DNA of 36,386 nt, taken from a virus. Where the stretch lies: IMG/VR virus record IMGVR_UViG_3300045136_000069, positions 1 through 36,386 of that record, one strand, 5' to 3'. Within the stretch, counting starts at the first letter, position 1. Each line of letters begins with the position of its first letter. Both the position numbers and the translations under genes were made by a program. The notes under the pieces were generated by a model that worked only from the letters and a program-made list of their open reading frames with translations, had not been told where the DNA came from and did no database searches. Of the stretch, positions 7,148-21,190 are shown one piece after another.

Positions 7148-7933
7148 ATGACTACGGCTCGCGCACTGATTACGGCCGCTTTCCGTGAGGGAAACCTTAT
7201 CCCCATCGGCACGACGCCCAACAGTGATGAATTGTCTGAGGCGCTGCCGCGCCTCAATCGTTATGTACGCGGCGTGTTCGGGTATGAAATGGGCGAAGAA
7301 TTGAGGGATTGGCCCGTGCCACAACCGCAGCGCACGGCGCCAATAGCCGCCAATTTTCCACAAGCCCCGTACCCTACTAGCGTTGATGCCAGCCTATTGT
7401 CGTTCCCACTTGCCGGTGACCCGTCGCTTTCCATCACGCCCTATCCGCCTAAGAACAGTCGAATTGTGTGGGGCGGTAAGAATGATATGCGCGTGTTCTT
7501 TCCCGAACAGCCGGATGACGGTTCGCGTATGTCCGTCGTTGCCGGTGCTGGTGCGGATGCGACGAAAGTGCTCACACTGGACGGTAACGGTCGCTTGATT
7601 GAAAATGCACCCGAACAAGTTCAGCCTACACCCGTCGTTCCGCGCGAATGGCTGTATCGTGCAGACCTTGGTAATTGGTTGCGCGTACAAGATATGGCGA
7701 TTGACGACGAATGCCCGTTTCCACCGGAGCATGATGATTTGTGGATTTGTCTGCTCGCCATTCGTCTCGCGCCTCGATATAACAAAACAATCGCAGCGGA
7801 AACGCAGGCGATTGCTGCCGCCGCAATGAAGCGTCTCAAAACACGATATCGGCAATCTGCTGATACAGTGTATCGCTCGTTTGACACGCCGCGCTCGTTG
7901 CAATCTTACATTTCTGGCCAGTGGTGGTGGTGA
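7148..7933 (+). CDS. Head-completion / head-to-tail adaptor, P22 gp4-like
   Basis: Proteins of this type bind beneath the portal after packaging and connect it to the tail hub. The product is 261 residues, longer than P22 gp4 (166). The C-terminal part carries the family's recognisable helical pattern (DDLWICLLAIRLAPRYN, then an Ala-rich helix ending KRLKTRYRQSAD) followed by a short tail ending in WWW. The N-terminal helix (TTARALITAAFREGNL...SDELSEALPRLNRYV) is also typical. A central insert of beta-type sequence (about 60-180) accounts for the extra length. The stop TGA overlaps the next ATG (TGATG at 7931-7935). Gene order after coat supports the call. Confidence 0.8.
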   Translation: MTTARALITAAFREGNLIPIGTTPNSDELSEALPRLNRYVRGVFGYEMGEELRDWPVPQPQRTAPIAANFPQAPYPTSVDASLLSFPLAGDPSLSITPYPPKNSRIVWGGKNDMRVFFPEQPDDGSRMSVVAGAGADATKVLTLDGNGRLIENAPEQVQPTPVVPREWLYRADLGNWLRVQDMAIDDECPFPPEHDDLWICLLAIRLAPRYNKTIAAETQAIAAAAMKRLKTRYRQSADTVYRSFDTPRSLQSYISGQWWW

Positions 7934-9216
7934 TGGCAACTCTTCCGCTCGGCGTAGGGGCCTATAAGCGAGAATCGGCTGGCGCACCAGAGGTTCGGCT
8001 CGTTAATCGCTTTTTTGAACAGGCGCCCGTGAACCTTCGCGAACGGTATGCGCTTATTGCGCGTCCCGGTACACGGTTATTGCGCGCGTTCCTACCGGAT
8101 ACAGCCAGCGGAACGCTGCGAGGACTATACAGCAAGGTCGGAGTGTTTAATAGTGACTTGTTCGTTGTCAGCGGCAAAAACCTGTATCGGTATAAGCCGG
8201 ATGGTACGACCATTCATATTCTAGGCGAAATTCGCGGAACCGGGCGACCGTCCGTTACCTATGCCAAAGGCATAGGATACGAGCGTCTATTTATTGCCGA
8301 TGGCCTGCTGTTGAATCGTTATGACGGTGGGACACATGCTCAAGGCACATTGACGGCGACTGGCACGATCAACACGCAAAAAGTGGAAATCGGCGGAACA
8401 TGGTACGCTTGGAACGCCGATGTGAATTTTGGGCCGCCGGACGGCACGATGGCGACACCATGGCTCGCCAATCCCGGGACTGACCCGCTGACCGCGCTTG
8501 CCAACTTGCTAAATTTCAATGGCGTGCCGGGCGTAGATTTCAGTAGCACACTCGCTGGCCCGTCCACTCTCGTTACGGCGTTGGCACAAGGTGGCCCGCC
8601 CGCTACGTCGCTCACAGTTACTGCGATTTCGGACGGGACCGATGGCAACTTGATTACGACAACGGTGGACGGTTCCGACTTGGGATGGGGAAACCCTACG
8701 CTGGAAAGCGGCGGCTCTCATAATCTGCACGGTGTTCCGATGCCGAACGGCGACCCGGCTGGCGTTTGTTGCACGCTGAACGAATATGTGCTTGTCTCAA
8801 AGGCAGGCTCACCAAAATTCTATTTCATCCGTCCGGGCGAAACGTCGATTGACGCGCTTTCGTTTATGACCAAGGAAAGCAATCCTGATGCTATTTCAGA
8901 CATGATTACGGTAGGGGACGTAGTATTAATTATGGGGCGCGCGTCCAGTGAGACATGGTATGCTACCGGCGACGCTAATACCCCGTTCGCTCCGTTGCAA
9001 GGCCGGACGCTGCCCCGAGGAATTATTAATGGCACCGCCGCGTTAGTTGAGGATACTGTCTTGCTTGTTGGCTCAGATGGTATAGTTTATACCGTTACAG
9101 GGTCGAATTACGGCGCCGGGCAGTATCAAAGGACCGCCATTGCCCGCGTGAGTAATCACGGCATCGAGGAACGTATTCGCCGTCAGTTGCGGCGTGAAGC
9201 AGGACTATCACCATGA
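7933..9216 (+). CDS. N-terminal half of a P22 gp10-like tail hub / DNA stabilisation protein, with an inserted domain
   Basis: The gp10 family forms the hub that plugs the packaged head. Residues 1-135 (PLGVGAYKRES..., LYSKVGVFNSDLFVVSGKNLY, YERLFIADGLLLNRYDGG) and 265-412 (NEYVLVSKAGSPKFYFIRPGE, ESNPDAISDMITVGDVV, SSETWYATGDANTPF, SNHGIEERIR) follow the family. They stop exactly where the usual single-chain protein would continue into its C-terminal blades; that part is found at 11450-12331. Residues about 138-262 are an extra domain ending SLTVTAISDGTDGNLI...WGNPTLESGG, which resembles part of the adhesin encoded next. The ATG at 7933 (TGATG overlap) is preferred over GTG at 7921. The stop overlaps the adhesin start by ATGA. 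Confidence 0.85.
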   Translation: MATLPLGVGAYKRESAGAPEVRLVNRFFEQAPVNLRERYALIARPGTRLLRAFLPDTASGTLRGLYSKVGVFNSDLFVVSGKNLYRYKPDGTTIHILGEIRGTGRPSVTYAKGIGYERLFIADGLLLNRYDGGTHAQGTLTATGTINTQKVEIGGTWYAWNADVNFGPPDGTMATPWLANPGTDPLTALANLLNFNGVPGVDFSSTLAGPSTLVTALAQGGPPATSLTVTAISDGTDGNLITTTVDGSDLGWGNPTLESGGSHNLHGVPMPNGDPAGVCCTLNEYVLVSKAGSPKFYFIRPGETSIDALSFMTKESNPDAISDMITVGDVVLIMGRASSETWYATGDANTPFAPLQGRTLPRGIINGTAALVEDTVLLVGSDGIVYTVTGSNYGAGQYQRTAIARVSNHGIEERIRRQLRREAGLSP

Positions 9217-11441
9217 GCAACCTTATTGTTGACGGATTTGCCCACTATGGTCGCGGCCTTGATTCGACCAGTGTTGGCGCGACACGATTGGCGATGTTGT
9301 CCGGCGCATGGGCAGAGGTTCCCTCGGTTGGTTTTAACGGCATTACAAAGTTGCCGTGGGACTTGTCGAACGATGATTTGTACGCTTCGACACGTTTTGC
9401 AGGCGGCACGATGTTGCGACGCGTGCTCCCGAGTCCACTCAGCACGATCATTGCGTCATTCTATGTGGCATTGTCCAACTTGCCGACACAGAATTTTTCC
9501 AAGAATCTGATTGAGTTTCGCGACAACGCAAACGCGCAAATTGCGGTGCTCGGTGTTCAATCGACGGGTTCATTATATGTCGGCACAAATCAAACGCTTA
9601 ATACAGTTGAGCTTGCGTCCAGCAACGGCCCGGTCATTGTCGCCGAAACTGCGACGCATATTGAAATCAAATTTACGCCCGGTACAGGCGCGGACGGCAC
9701 CGTCACAGTGAATGCCAATGGCGCGACGGTTATCAACGCGACGGGCCTAGTGCTGTCCAATCATAATAACGTGGCACAATTCTGCCTTGGTTCTGACCGT
9801 GTGAATCCTGGCGCTACCTTCTATTTCGCAAATCTGATTGTTCGTGATACGTCAGGCGATTTCAACAACGATATTGTCGGCGACCGGCGTGTGGCAACAC
9901 TTATTGTCAATGCCGACGACCCGGAACATCAGGGATGGACAGCACGTCCATTGCGCCGGTTTGGGAACGGTATCCTGAATAACGGTACGGCTCCGTCGCC
10001 CGGCGGAACGGCATCGCACAACGCAGGCGTGTTCTGTGGCGTTACCACGGACACCGACATGGGCAACCTCGACTTTACAATCGAAGGACAGTTTCGGTTC
10101 CAGCGCCTTCCGACCGGCTCGAACAAAGCGGTGTTTTTCGGCAAATGGGATGAAGCTGCAAATCAACGGAGCTATCAACTTTATCTCGGCGGACCGTCGC
10201 TCAACAGCGGCAATCTTGTGTGGCGCATTTCGACGGACGGCACCAACGGGACAGTACAGACCCTATTTTCCTATCCATGGAAGCCCGTGGTGGGCCAGTG
10301 GTATCACGTCGCGGTGTGTCGCCAGTCAGGCGTCACCAACGTCTACATTGACGGTGTTCCGCTAGGAACCGGCTTTGCCGACGCGAACATTTACTTTGCC
10401 GGTTCATCGCGTACCGCGCTCATGGTCGAAACGTCCGGTGGCGGCGGCGTTGCTAATACGGCGCTTGACGGATGGAACGACGAGTTCCGCATTACCAAAG
10501 CTTTCGCGCGGTATACCGGAACGTTTACACCGCCCTCTGCGGCATTCCCGCGTGGTCCGACTAACGATCCACAATGGTCCAGCGTGGTGTGGTTGTCCGG
10601 ATGGGACCAAGCCAGCGTTGCCGATGATTCAGGCTTTGCCCGGCCGCTCAGCGCAATCAACGGTGCCGCCGCTCTTACTCCCGATGACGGCGGTGCGGCC
10701 TATCAGACTATCAACAAAAACATTGCCAAGGATGACAATTTCATCGAAGCATCGTTGTTGTTCGCGTCGGGCATTCTTACACAAACTGCCCTTCCGACCA
10801 ACAATAAGACAGTCACCGTGGGCACAAAGGACGGTACAAATCCCGCCGTCTATACGTGGAAAACGACACTGACTGGTGGAGGCAGTACACCATTTGAGGT
10901 TCTTATCGGCGCAGACGTGTTTTCCAGTTTGACCAATCTGATGAACGCCATCCTCGCCGGACCCGGCGAAGGTACAACCTACGGCACCGGAACGACCGCC
11001 AATTTCGATGTGACTGCCGAACAACTGCCGATCAATCAGTTGTTCGTACAGGCGTTGACGGCTGGCACAGTTGGAAACTCCATCGCGGTTGCTACCGATG
11101 ACCCAAATGGTTCGTGGGGTGTGAGTGTCACTACGCTGTTGGGTGGCGCGGACATTCCACCTTTCAGTCAGTTCACGACGCAGCATTTGCCGCCCGGCGC
11201 TTCGGTTGTCGATAGTCTCACCATCGTTCGACGGTCATGGAAAACGGATGCCGGGACGTGTACGGTTCGTGCATCGTTCGTCGGTCCAGACGGCGGCGTG
11301 GAGAACGGCGCCGTGGTTCCTGAATCTACCACTCCAACGCTGCATCACGACACGTTTGAAACGGACCCGGACAATCCAGGCGGTGCGCTTACCCCAACAG
11401 CCATTCTATTAGGTAAACTGCGCATCAACCGCACGGCGTGA
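9213..11441 (+). CDS. Large virion adhesin with concanavalin/LamG-type jelly-roll domains
   Basis: The 742-residue product is almost all beta-sandwich and very likely sits on the tail to bind the cell surface. Domain reading: residues 1-235 form a first concanavalin-like fold ending in the phage-typical segment RDTSGDFNNDIVGDRRVATL; about 245-450 is a classic LamG domain (FTIEGQFRF, VGQWYHVAVCRQSG, NVYIDGVPLG, DEFRITKAFARYTGTFTPP). Residues about 523-646 are a small beta module (NKTVTVGTKDGTNPAVYTWK ... AGTVGNSIAV), and 650-742 is a terminal domain ending LLGKLRINRTA. It starts by ATGA overlap with the first gp10-like half and is followed 8 bases later by the second half. No enzymatic motif is visible. 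Confidence 0.8.
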   Translation: MSNLIVDGFAHYGRGLDSTSVGATRLAMLSGAWAEVPSVGFNGITKLPWDLSNDDLYASTRFAGGTMLRRVLPSPLSTIIASFYVALSNLPTQNFSKNLIEFRDNANAQIAVLGVQSTGSLYVGTNQTLNTVELASSNGPVIVAETATHIEIKFTPGTGADGTVTVNANGATVINATGLVLSNHNNVAQFCLGSDRVNPGATFYFANLIVRDTSGDFNNDIVGDRRVATLIVNADDPEHQGWTARPLRRFGNGILNNGTAPSPGGTASHNAGVFCGVTTDTDMGNLDFTIEGQFRFQRLPTGSNKAVFFGKWDEAANQRSYQLYLGGPSLNSGNLVWRISTDGTNGTVQTLFSYPWKPVVGQWYHVAVCRQSGVTNVYIDGVPLGTGFADANIYFAGSSRTALMVETSGGGGVANTALDGWNDEFRITKAFARYTGTFTPPSAAFPRGPTNDPQWSSVVWLSGWDQASVADDSGFARPLSAINGAAALTPDDGGAAYQTINKNIAKDDNFIEASLLFASGILTQTALPTNNKTVTVGTKDGTNPAVYTWKTTLTGGGSTPFEVLIGADVFSSLTNLMNAILAGPGEGTTYGTGTTANFDVTAEQLPINQLFVQALTAGTVGNSIAVATDDPNGSWGVSVTTLLGGADIPPFSQFTTQHLPPGASVVDSLTIVRRSWKTDAGTCTVRASFVGPDGGVENGAVVPESTTPTLHHDTFETDPDNPGGALTPTAILLGKLRINRTA

Positions 11442-11449
11442 GGGAAGCC

Positions 11450-12331
11450 ATGACGACGGCGCTCGCGGGTCGCGTATCACAAGGGGCCGCGCTGGTCGCT
11501 CGCGCCGGTCAAGGCGATTTGTCGCCTCACGCTCGTGTTTCTAGCATGATCGCGATGGTGACGTATGCACCGCCGCCTGCGCGTTCCGCGCGTTCCAGTC
11601 AAATACTTGGGTTGGTGCCGTATGCTATCGGCAATCATCAGCAAAAAGTTCCGCGCGCTTCACAATTTCTACAGCTTGTCGTGTGGGGCGCGGAAATTCC
11701 TGTCGAAGCACGTTCGCGTGCATGGGGTTTTGTGCTGGACGGTCATCCTATGTACGTACTCGATTTGGGTCAGGAAGGTACATTCATCTATGACCTTGTG
11801 ACCCAACAATGGTCGAATTTCGTCACACAGGGACACGTCGGATGGAATATGCGGAACGGAACCATGTGGGGAGAAACTAATCGTATTGTGGGCGCTGATG
11901 CCGCGTTCCCTTATGTCTGGGAAATGGTCCCGGATGAACCGTTGGACGAAGGCTTCCGTCCAATCGACCACGTTGTTACTGGCGGTATCGCACTCCGTTC
12001 GCGCGTGTTCGTCAGCATGTCGGCGCTGCGCGTAGCCGCCTCATCCGGCAAACTACAAAGTGGCGCTGTTCCCGTGTTCAACATGCGTTTCAGCGACGAT
12101 AACGGCAATACATGGAGTAAGTATTACGCAATCGACTTGCAGCCGGGAAATTACAAACAGGACTTGGCGTGGCGCTCGCTCGGGTCTTTCATGGCGCCGG
12201 GGCGTATCATTGAGTTGTCCGATCAGGGTGGGCTACTCCGAATTGATGGCGCCGACGTATTTCTTGACGGCTTCGATTTGGAGAGCGCGGAAGCGCCGCC
12301 GCCGTCGCAGGGGCGTCCCAATGGCACCTAA
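11450..12331 (+). CDS. C-terminal half of the P22 gp10-like tail hub protein, with an N-terminal repeat leader
   Basis: From about residue 87 onward the 293-residue product matches the C-terminal half expected of gp10-family hubs: ARSRAWGFVLDGHPMYVLDL, EGTFIYDLVTQQWSNF, MWGETNRIVGAD, VFNMRFSDDNGNTWSKYY, APGRIIELSDQGGLLRIDG. The first 80 residues are something else: four units of about 20 residues with the core R(V/S/A)S(Q/S)..., at 8, 29, 48 and 69, each ending in a hydrophobic strand such as MIAMVTYA or ILGLVPYA. The ATG at 11450 has GAGGGAA 5 bases upstream and is preferred to GTG 11438. The last 11 bases overlap the fibre start. Confidence 0.82.
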   Translation: MTTALAGRVSQGAALVARAGQGDLSPHARVSSMIAMVTYAPPPARSARSSQILGLVPYAIGNHQQKVPRASQFLQLVVWGAEIPVEARSRAWGFVLDGHPMYVLDLGQEGTFIYDLVTQQWSNFVTQGHVGWNMRNGTMWGETNRIVGADAAFPYVWEMVPDEPLDEGFRPIDHVVTGGIALRSRVFVSMSALRVAASSGKLQSGAVPVFNMRFSDDNGNTWSKYYAIDLQPGNYKQDLAWRSLGSFMAPGRIIELSDQGGLLRIDGADVFLDGFDLESAEAPPPSQGRPNGT

Positions 12332-14393
12332 CATTGTCAACCCGCTCAATCAGTTAGTGCCCATCGTTGACAGCTTTGGCCGTCCGACGCTGGAATTTAT
12401 GCTCAAATGGGCACAGCAAGCCCGGCAGAACAGCGAAGGCGGCAGCAGCATAGTCGGCCCAGGCGATGCGACCAAGTTTCTCAATGGCGAGGTTACACCC
12501 GTATTCGCCCAGGTGAAGGATTCAGACCTGGCAATGTCCGATACCGTCGCGAACAATGTAAGCACGTCTAAACATGGCTTCGCGCCTAAAGCGCCGAACG
12601 ATGCGACCCAATTTCTTGACGGAACCGGCGCGTATGACACCGTTAAAGACACGGACTTGTCAACGTCGGACAATACAACCAACAATGTTTCGACGTCGAA
12701 GCACGGCTTTGCGCCTAAAGCGCCGAACGACGCGACCCAATTTCTTGACGGAACCGGCGCTTATGACACGGTGAAGGACACGGACTTGTCAACGTCGGAC
12801 AACACCGCAAACAACGTAAGCACAAGCAAACATGGTTTTGCGCCTAAAGCGCCGAACGACGCAACAATGTTTCTTGACGGGACCGGTAACTACAGCAAGC
12901 CAGCGGCGAAACAGTATGCGAGTGTGCAGCCGCTTGGAACCAATACAAACACGCGTAAGTTTGCAACACAGGGTGTAATCATTCGCCCGTTGTCGGACAT
13001 TAAGGTTACGCAATTGACTGCCGTTCTCAATGTTAATTCATCCTCTCCGACGTACAAATTCTCAATCGTGTCGCTCAACTACACGCCCGGTTCGGCGTTG
13101 TTCGCGGTAGTGAGCAGCGACAATATCGCCACAGCCATGTCAAGCACGAACGGTACGAGCTATACAGACCGCTCCATCCCCGGCAATACGCGCTATTCTG
13201 CCGTGGCGTATTGTGATTCGCTCGGCAAATTCATTGCCGTGTGCAGCGGCGGCACCGTGACTCAGTGGGCGTATAGTGGCGATGCAATTAACTGGACAGC
13301 AATTGCATCCCCACCATTTACGAATGCTCAAAACGTTGCTTGGTCGAAAGATTTGAACATCGCTGTCGCGTGGAGCAGTTCCGCCACTAACGGTATGGCG
13401 TGGTCAACAGACCTTACCACTTGGACCGTCGTTAGCAATGCAGGCTGTATCTCGTCCATATCATCGCCGGGCGGTCATGCCATCTGTTGGTCGCCGGAGT
13501 TAGGGATTTTCTGTGCCGCAGGACAGGCGACGGGCACGAATCAATATGCCACTAGTCCGGACGGCAAGACCTGGACCGGTAATACGACGGGTACGCTCGT
13601 GAACCTTTGCGGCATTGCGTGGGGCGGCGACGGTCACGGCGGCGGTGCTCAACGCTTTATCGCGGTAGGGACCGGCAACGTTGTGCGGACCAGCACAAAT
13701 GGTACATCTTGGACAAGTGAAACGTTTGCTACAACGCCGGGTACGGTTGCCGTTGACATTGCCTATTCGCCGTTACTCGACCGTTTCGTGGTCGTCGGCA
13801 ACAACGGTACGTGCCAAACACGCGAAGGCGGAAGCGCGACATGGACGCAGCGCACGATTTCAAATCATACATGGCGTTCTATCGTATGGTCCGCTGGTGT
13901 GCGTCTGTTCGTGGTGGTTGCCGACGACGGTTCCGTGGCAACATCGCCGGACGGCATTACATGGACCGACCGTACTGCGTCCAGCGTTCACGCCTGGAGA
14001 TCGATTGCGGTCGCCGATATTGACACAACCTTCACGATCAACTCTCAGCTTGCTGTATCGGCTGCCAACGTGACGGCAACAGGGTCACAGCTAGTTGACA
14101 ACATTACGGACAACCTCACGGCTACATTGTCGGCAGGCAACTACTACGCCTTGCTCGTGACGGGTACGAGTTTGGCGACCGGCACGACGAATCTTCCCAT
14201 TCGGCAAGGGCCGAGTTCGCCAAATACCGCCTACGCCAATCTGCCGCTTGAGCCGATGAATTGGAGCACCGTTGAGACATGCGCGCTTAACGCGCTATTG
14301 CCACAGAACACGCCGCCGACTAGCGGGACCTTCATCATCGAAAATGAGCCCGCCGCCCATAAGTGCATTGGCCTATTTTACACGTTGTTATGA
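12321..14393 (+). CDS. Tail fibre with 43-residue tandem repeats and a seven-bladed Asp-box beta-propeller
   Basis: The 690-residue fibre starts with an attachment-like segment (MAPNIVNPLNQLVPIVD, LEFMLKWAQQAR). Residues 65-193 are three near-identical 43-residue repeats of the fibre-shaft type (VSTSKHGFAPKAPNDATQFL). Residues about 260-570 contain seven sialidase-like Asp-box units: STNGTSYTD, SGDAINWTA, STDLTTWT, SPDGKTWTG, STNGTSWTS, EGGSATWTQ and SPDGITWTD. Each is preceded by a hydrophobic strand such as FIAVGTGN or FVVVADDG, which predicts a seven-bladed propeller. A C-terminal beta domain ends FYTLL. The ATG at 12321 has AGGGG upstream and an 11-base overlap with the previous gene; a longer frame extending upstream to 12060 is antagonistic to the real hub gene. 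No catalytic sialidase residues are obvious, so binding is more likely than cleavage. Confidence 0.85.
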   Translation: MAPNIVNPLNQLVPIVDSFGRPTLEFMLKWAQQARQNSEGGSSIVGPGDATKFLNGEVTPVFAQVKDSDLAMSDTVANNVSTSKHGFAPKAPNDATQFLDGTGAYDTVKDTDLSTSDNTTNNVSTSKHGFAPKAPNDATQFLDGTGAYDTVKDTDLSTSDNTANNVSTSKHGFAPKAPNDATMFLDGTGNYSKPAAKQYASVQPLGTNTNTRKFATQGVIIRPLSDIKVTQLTAVLNVNSSSPTYKFSIVSLNYTPGSALFAVVSSDNIATAMSSTNGTSYTDRSIPGNTRYSAVAYCDSLGKFIAVCSGGTVTQWAYSGDAINWTAIASPPFTNAQNVAWSKDLNIAVAWSSSATNGMAWSTDLTTWTVVSNAGCISSISSPGGHAICWSPELGIFCAAGQATGTNQYATSPDGKTWTGNTTGTLVNLCGIAWGGDGHGGGAQRFIAVGTGNVVRTSTNGTSWTSETFATTPGTVAVDIAYSPLLDRFVVVGNNGTCQTREGGSATWTQRTISNHTWRSIVWSAGVRLFVVVADDGSVATSPDGITWTDRTASSVHAWRSIAVADIDTTFTINSQLAVSAANVTATGSQLVDNITDNLTATLSAGNYYALLVTGTSLATGTTNLPIRQGPSSPNTAYANLPLEPMNWSTVETCALNALLPQNTPPTSGTFIIENEPAAHKCIGLFYTLL
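12513..12899 (+). repeat. Three direct tandem repeats of 129 bp in the fibre gene
   Basis: Units begin at 12513, 12642 and 12771 and each encodes 43 residues starting VKD(S/T)DL. Units 2 and 3 are nearly identical in DNA and unit 1 is more diverged, so the array probably grew by recent duplication of the distal unit. A shorter partial unit (PGDATKFLNG) precedes the array. Confidence 0.93.
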
Positions 14394-20524: not shown

Positions 20525-21190
20525 ATGCGTGCGTTTCTTCTCGGCATAATCGCGTCTCTCGCCCTCGCCCTCGGCGCCGCCGTCCTTTTTCCCGGCCTTG
20601 CGCGTTCCTCGCCTGTCTATGTAATGTCGTGTTCTGGCACGTATCTTGGCAAAGGTTACGTGCTTACCGCCGGTCATTGCGTCCAGGGTGAGACGGAAAC
20701 CATTCTGCGCCAGGACGCACCCACTGACGCCGACGATAAGAGTGGGTGGACGGCGAAGGTCGTTCTGACCGATCACCTACACGATATTGCCATTGTAAAA
20801 TTCGACAAGGTGAGGGTGAAGAACATGAAGCCGAACGGCACGGTGGAATGGAACGACGAACCGATCACAGAAACGCTGCCGTTCGCCGTCACCAAAGTCG
20901 GCTGCACCTTTCCGAAGATGCGTCAGCATTACGTGATGAAAGGCTGGCCTGCCGGTATGTACGCCGAGACGATTGGTTACATCGCGGGCGACCGTAAAAA
21001 ACGCGCCTACTGGCCTGAATCCTATCTTATTGCTGTCGCGGGCTTTTTTGGTAGCTCCGGGTCCGGCGTGTATAATCAAATCACGGATACGGTTGACGGC
21101 GTGATGGTGGGCATGATTCCCGGCTCCGGCCTGATGATTATGGTCCCCACGGCAGTCGTGTGTAACATCATTCCGCGTGAGATTCCATGA
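20525..21190 (+). CDS. Exported trypsin-like (S1 family) serine protease
   Basis: The 221-residue product begins with a signal peptide or N-terminal anchor (MRAFLLGIIASLALALGAAVLFPGLA) and then shows a chymotrypsin-fold catalytic triad: His51 in VLTAGHC, Asp87 in HDIAIVKFD, and Ser178 in FGSSGSGV. Cys36/Cys52 flank the His strand as in the usual disulphide, and Cys127/Cys213 could form a second. The protein should therefore act outside the cytoplasm. AAAGGAAAA precedes the ATG. It is the last gene of the late arm. Possible roles are cleavage of a virion adhesin, of an envelope protein during lysis, or of outer defences; the sequence does not decide. Phage trypsin-like proteases with leaders are uncommon. 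Confidence 0.88.
   Translation: MRAFLLGIIASLALALGAAVLFPGLARSSPVYVMSCSGTYLGKGYVLTAGHCVQGETETILRQDAPTDADDKSGWTAKVVLTDHLHDIAIVKFDKVRVKNMKPNGTVEWNDEPITETLPFAVTKVGCTFPKMRQHYVMKGWPAGMYAETIGYIAGDRKKRAYWPESYLIAVAGFFGSSGSGVYNQITDTVDGVMVGMIPGSGLMIMVPTAVVCNIIPREIP

Follow-up and report, generated by a model that had tools for sequence, protein, structure and literature searches.

The gp10-type hub, also termed tubeB or nozzle, closes the DNA-filled head and gates ejection. In the SU10 nozzle, a single chain carries three repeated tryptophans, to which the three chains of a short fibre attach in pseudo-threefold symmetry; Ig-like domains are located between blades 2 and 3 (PMC9509320). The Sulfitobacter phage PhiGT1, according to the portions of its description consulted, has a dual tubeA hub, with the adaptor duplicated (PMC10386132). 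A split gp10 with an adhesin between its halves was not reported in the open-access literature searched, most subscription journals and bioRxiv lying outside that scope. A tblastn search with the halves (N parts and C parts) from several clades also found no isolated phage with a split hub; the matches inspected were each one annotated hub chain, e.g., in Pam1, Pan3, Vibrio phages, Rhodoferax phage P26218 and DSL-LC05. Here we describe such a locus in the IMG/VR virus record IMGVR_UViG_3300045136_000069, analysed whole (36,386 bases, referred to as the window), a single metagenomic record with unclosed ends. Related loci carry labels such as L046.

The window encodes a portal (PF16510, 2.1e-149) and a coat protein (PF11651, 2.8e-32) of the P22 type, and its gene order is adaptor, hub, GNAT and ejection genes (Table 1). 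The genome context is that of the P22 gp10/PHROG 578 hub, with P22-type portal and coat and an upstream adaptor, the match of the adaptor to a PHROG connector being weak (Ad3, E 0.08). The adaptor occupies the equal position in Pam1 and Pan3, and a similar protein precedes the single-chain hub of L046. Downstream, the next ORF overlaps the 3' end of the hub C part. Its product has no Pfam or PHROG match, and shows near-identical repeats (KDTDLSTSDN..KHGFAPKAPNDATQFLDGTGAYDTV) together with several SPDGxTWT-like motifs. It is noted that the large terminase ORF (164-2599, +, 811 aa) seems to contain an intein, from ...GACLDPHTRVLGADLTWREISTLRPGDEV... to ...IAEGFVSHNS, with a Pfam Intein_splicing signal of 20.7 bits that is under the cut-off of 35.8. 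At the end of the structural gene block, a trypsin-like serine protease is encoded whose N-terminus has a hydrophobic stretch (20525-21190, +; PF13365, 4.6e-10).

Table 1. Features of the split hub locus and its flanks, in positions of the window.
Feature	Position	Strand	Basis
Probable head-tail adaptor (gp4/tubeA position)	7148..7933	+	directly upstream of hub N part
Hub N part (gp10-N), predicted propeller blades, 427 aa	7933..9216	+	PHROG 578 and structure model
Inserted module, ~125 aa, in hub N part (residues ~138-267)	8344..8733	+	alignments, profile
Adhesin (predicted), 742 aa	9213..11441	+	PF13385; homologous adhesins at equivalent site
Module copy within adhesin	10770..11150	+	hub-insert profile, residues 525-651, 1.4e-18
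Hub C part (gp10-C), predicted last blade and beta-sandwich platform after repeat extension, 293 aa	11450..12331	+	PHROG 578 and structure model
N-terminal extension of C part, proposed adhesin dock	11450..11707	+	~18-residue periodicity, 58 three-gene relatives
Next gene, 689 aa, tail-fibre-like by repeats (KDTDLSTSDN...KHGFAPKAPNDATQFLDGTG)	12324..14393	+	direct reading

The hub N part, the adhesin and the hub C part are encoded in three different frames, and the N part terminates 11 residues past a conserved SNHGIEERIR. Both products match PHROG 578, which is the gp10 family (head closure Hc3): the N part over profile positions 3-280 of 486 (2.2e-30), the C part over positions 288-446 (8.5e-14), and the two jointly over 3-446. 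A profile built from single-chain gp10s and the halves matches the window at exactly two places, over model positions 2-265 and 245-452 of 455, and with this profile no other gp10 was found in the 36,386 bases. Among solved structures, the hubs of Pan3, Pam1, Sf6 and P22 are closest in sequence. A preliminary description of this DNA, made from the letters alone, had read the region as a gp10-like hub split into two coupled genes around a complete 742-residue adhesin gene with an ATGA overlap. The coordinates and frames were right, the intervening ORF is read as such a gene, and the coverage of PHROG 578 and of the profile by the two halves is complementary. The hub was also said to continue from 11450; the C part does start there, but the motif AWGFVLDGHPMYVLDL expected at that point sits ~90 codons in, behind a repeat region.

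The two products were modelled with AlphaFold, using an alignment of 47 N parts for the one and of 61 C parts for the other. The model of the N part (pLDDT 85) superimposes on residues 46-288 of P22 gp10 (8eap) with a Z of 21.5 and an rmsd of 2.2 over 217 residues, and residues 87-273 of the C-part model superimpose on gp10 289-472 with a Z of 13.6 and an rmsd of 2.8 over 175 residues, which is the complementary coverage of a single-chain gp10 that the split predicts. The alignment to Sf6 gp8 (53-288 for the N part, 284-472 for the C part) agrees with this division. The models align to 8eap, 8u10, 7sg7, 7eeq and 9vyg, and Foldseek puts the same hubs at the top of the ranking for both. The gp10 fold of propeller and beta-sandwich is covered by the two models jointly and by neither chain alone. 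Since the models align to gp10 46-288 and 289-472, the break falls at one point of the fold; all isolated members examined are one polypeptide, whereas here the chain is split at gp10 288/289. From counting predicted strands, we infer that the break lies between two propeller blades, in a short inter-blade linker, with the N chain forming the greater part of the propeller, and the last blade and the beta-sandwich coming from the C chain.

The same arrangement recurs in uncultured phages. Related loci were not found when single proteins of the record were used as queries; a search with a degenerate DNA pattern encoding the C-part motif DGHxFYVLxLG succeeded. This C-keyed scan of IMG/VR gave 68 loci with both parts: 55 with three genes, in which ~1.0 to 2.9 kb separate the N part from the C part; 10 fused, whose N part adjoins a C part that carries a long fused domain; and 3 single-chain. 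To offset this choice of starting point, an N-keyed scan was run as well, covering the best 80 of 517 confirmed relatives and one locus from a genome scan. Both parts were present in 69 loci (60 three-gene, 8 fused and 1 single-chain, the last being L207 from a bacterial genome), and 12 more loci have no C part in the stretch examined, in 11 cases because the contig ends. Recurrence in >100 other loci, the two scans partly overlapping, excludes chance, frameshift error and misassembly, and the return of one gene order, with the adhesin between N part and C part, in a large family of short-tailed, uncultured phages indicates a stable tail design rather than a one-off accident. Twenty relatives have records of 37 to 51 kb, each with one N part and one C part, and no second gp10 was found in any of them. 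Neither a full-length gp10 elsewhere nor a pair of independent families with overlapping coverage, either of which would have spoken against the preliminary description, appeared in the window or in these long relatives. Among ~85,000 bacterial and archaeal species genomes, one relative was found, itself single-chain, compared to >500 in viral contigs, where different queries were used. This near-absence suggests that the phages are mostly non-integrating, or that their hosts are unsampled.

The start codon of the adhesin overlaps the stop codon of the N part as ATGA. Fusion of the N part to the adhesin by frameshifting was considered and rejected, no slippery heptamer being seen at this overlap. 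The adhesin is composed of an N-terminal DGFxHYG domain, a LamG domain (residues 279-427; PF13385, 41.7 bits against a curated cut-off of 27.6), a module common to the hub N part, and a C-terminal domain. Homologous adhesins that match it from end to end (E below 1e-90) occupy the equivalent site in ~25 loci. Shorter adhesins of ~360 residues keep the first ~250 and the last ~100 residues, the middle with LamG and the common module being absent; LamG (PF13385) was detected in 28 of the 58 insert regions scanned. In the N-keyed scan, the gene between the parts belongs to a single adhesin family in each of the 60 three-gene loci. L135, L132 and L137 had been taken as exceptions, which did not hold: the adhesin is present in L135 after all, and in L132 and L137 it is present along with further fibre-like genes. 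In these two loci (L132 4052-8677, L137 2337-6951), the adhesin is followed by fibre-like genes with QPVSAASLPLPTGAAT repeats; in L132, two fibre-like genes besides the adhesin lie between the hub parts, and a Gly-rich protein is also seen. The break can hold multi-gene cargo, and tandem adhesin copies occur in L012, L013, L161 and L189. The short adhesin core is also found elsewhere: in Tetraselmis viridis virus S20 it follows the tape measure gene, and in the 131-kb Mesorhizobium phage Cp1R7A-A1 it lies next to tail-fibre genes. Its presence in other kinds of phages speaks for a role in receptor binding and for the adhesin gene having come from outside, and the product is predicted to be a receptor-binding protein of the LamG type, a concanavalin-like, sugar-binding kind of domain.

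The hub of the record carries two additions. The inserted module of the N part is absent from Pam1, Pan3, the Vibrio phage and the other single-chain phage hubs aligned. By profile, the N part of the record has one copy, and those of L084, L057, L188 and L011 have two to four. The N-part ORF of L011 (4406-6973, 855 aa) carries four copies, forming a length ladder of the module within one family. The second addition, the N-terminal extension of the C part, consists of about four RxSQ-type repeats (GRVSQ, ARVSS, ARSSQ, PRASQ) of ~18 residues each. The extension is typically ~76 residues, and its periodicity is seen across 58 three-gene relatives, with an identity at lag 18 of 0.135 vs ~0.075 elsewhere. 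Modelled alone, it is of low confidence, with pLDDT about 50 or below. The repeat profile gave no match in the fused or single-chain hubs tested. It should be mentioned that this profile is not perfectly sensitive, since L081 was not matched although its repeats are visible by eye. The extension is a new gain on the C chain and the predicted dock of the adhesin.

In the fused hubs (L015, L025, L030, L035, L045, L059, L077, L136 and L188), the two parts are adjacent and split at the same linker. There is no separate adhesin gene; another domain is carried on the C part, and the repeat profile finds no match. L059 has a LamG domain, and L081 an F5/8-type domain, in frame with the C part. The C parts of seven fused hubs (L015, L025, L035, L077, L030, L136 and L188) are extended at the N-terminus by ~370 to 460 residues, which on inspection by eye resemble a propeller and have weak Pfam propeller-type matches at most. 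In L030 (oriented to match, TGA at 8381-8383) and in L072, the N and C ORFs share a frame and are separated by a single TGA, and a readthrough product would be a fused hub.

A tree was calculated from the joined core regions of the hubs. The split hubs cluster (SH-aLRT 97); nested among them is a single-chain hub on a long branch, L046. A tree that keeps the split hubs together in a single clade explains the data equally well (AU p 0.53), and the split forms fit one ancient origin on this tree; the fused forms take two separate positions. Judged from these relationships, the split is old and shared by the clade and did not arise recently in the phage of the record; a recent insertion confined to the record was considered and rejected. 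L046 is one chain of 685 aa, with a ~20-residue linker where the split forms break and with the inserted module already present. Read by eye, its gene order of adaptor, hub, GNAT and ejection genes is as in the record, and an adhesin of the record's family was not found in the L046 stretch examined. L046 looks like the best candidate for the pre-split state; alternatively, it may be a re-fused hub. The adhesin may have entered the hub gene, or the gene may have split first, with the site then collecting binding genes.

The N and C parts are co-inherited, more tightly than either is with the adhesin, as their distances correlate at 0.91, compared to 0.79 and 0.81 for the N or C part against the adhesin. 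The spacing of the three genes is tight as well. The adhesin starts -3 to +18 nt from the N-part stop in 53 of 54 loci, with 17 ATGA-type overlaps, and the C part starts -3 to +21 nt from the adhesin stop, again in 53 of 54. The complementary coverage in sequence and structure, the lack of a second gp10 and the co-inheritance of the parts strongly support the two-chain hub of the preliminary description, that is, two polypeptides that would together be a variant of the known P22 gp10 family and not independent families.

We consider it likely, as the best explanation of these data, that the gp10 hub of this P22-like podovirus is made of two chains, with the adhesin coded between them and most likely docked by the C-chain repeats. 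The N part, adhesin and C part would be translated in series with tight coupling, such that the N chain, adhesin and C chain appear together. The N and C chains would then close the propeller, giving a hub ring below the adaptor, presumably with six copies of each, and the repeat extension at the break would hold the adhesin on the hub beside its site of synthesis. The domains in frame with the C part at the break, LamG in L059 and F5/8-type in L081, point the same way as docking. A wider proposal is possible, and we offer it tentatively: in a large podovirus lineage, the two-chain propeller would have taken the place of the single-chain nozzle for good, its broken linker would serve for docking, with the RxSQ repeats of the C chain holding a LamG adhesin, and the break would be a hot spot for adding, doubling and fusing binding genes or domains. 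That the hub has two chains and the adhesin does not dock on it appears rather unlikely. The adhesin gene would then merely sit at a permissive operon break, and its product would attach to the adaptor or a fibre, or remain free. The short-core homologues in virus S20 and in the Mesorhizobium phage do indicate a family independent of this hub. However, the adhesin is between the parts in every three-gene locus of the N-keyed scan, in other loci a different binding-type domain is joined in frame to the C part at this very point, and the repeat extension accompanies the separate adhesin gene.

The remaining alternatives concern the split itself. The N part alone could be a functional hub, with the C part being an independent adhesin-anchor that merely resembles the gp10 C-terminus, and the C part does have its own N-terminal region and start site. 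This is improbable, since the N part is without the last part of the gp10 fold, the gp10 core is kept in the C part of every split locus, no other gp10 C-terminal region was found in the 20 long relatives, and the N and C parts covary more tightly than either does with the adhesin. We regard as highly improbable a split that is only apparent, with a single chain restored by frameshifting, splicing or readthrough: the one-frame ORFs of L030, with TGA between, would be compatible with it, but the record has three different frames with a complete 2.2-kb gene between the parts, each part has its own start, and most relatives also differ in frame. An assembly error, a chimera or a decaying gene in this contig alone might be suspected in a single metagenomic record with unclosed ends; the recurrence of the gene order, with all frames open, in numerous independent contigs and metagenomes refutes it and leaves it practically no probability. 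The split itself is confirmed, and its reading as a two-chain hub is well supported; it marks a large uncultured clade and comes with the repeat extension and the inserted module.

If the hub consists of two chains without a covalent link, the break would be a natural, evolution-tested place for receptor-binding modules, beside the ejection gate, which has to open once binding occurs. The results give a likely function to hundreds of uncultured-podovirus ORFs, whose halves match the known hub partially, so that annotation easily misses them. The syntenic, single-chain L046 makes the origin of the split directly testable.

Compared to P22 gp10, Sf6 gp8 and the needle-head protein of Pam1 and Pan3 (PHROG 578, Hc3, tubeB), the hub of the record is alike in profile, fold, position after the adaptor and portal/coat context. 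The known members of the P22 gp10 type are one chain, whereas the record has two, with a gene between them, an inserted module and a repeat extension. PhiGT1 likewise departs from the standard podovirus hub gene set; a split gp10/tubeB with an adhesin is not described in the portions of that account consulted (PMC10386132). The SU10 nozzle resembles the predicted hub in being a propeller with Ig-like domains between blades, and in SU10 a repeated segment of the hub chain holds the fibre, as the repeats may do here. Tandem repeats within one hub chain are present in the record as in the SU10 dock (~four, of ~18 residues). However, the SU10 nozzle is one chain, and its three-tryptophan dock is located elsewhere and is not of the RxSQ type, the record's repeats having no tryptophan repeats. 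By structural ranges, the break maps near SU10 770/772, while the SU10 dock loop, 839-857, is placed deeper in the hub than the repeats are.
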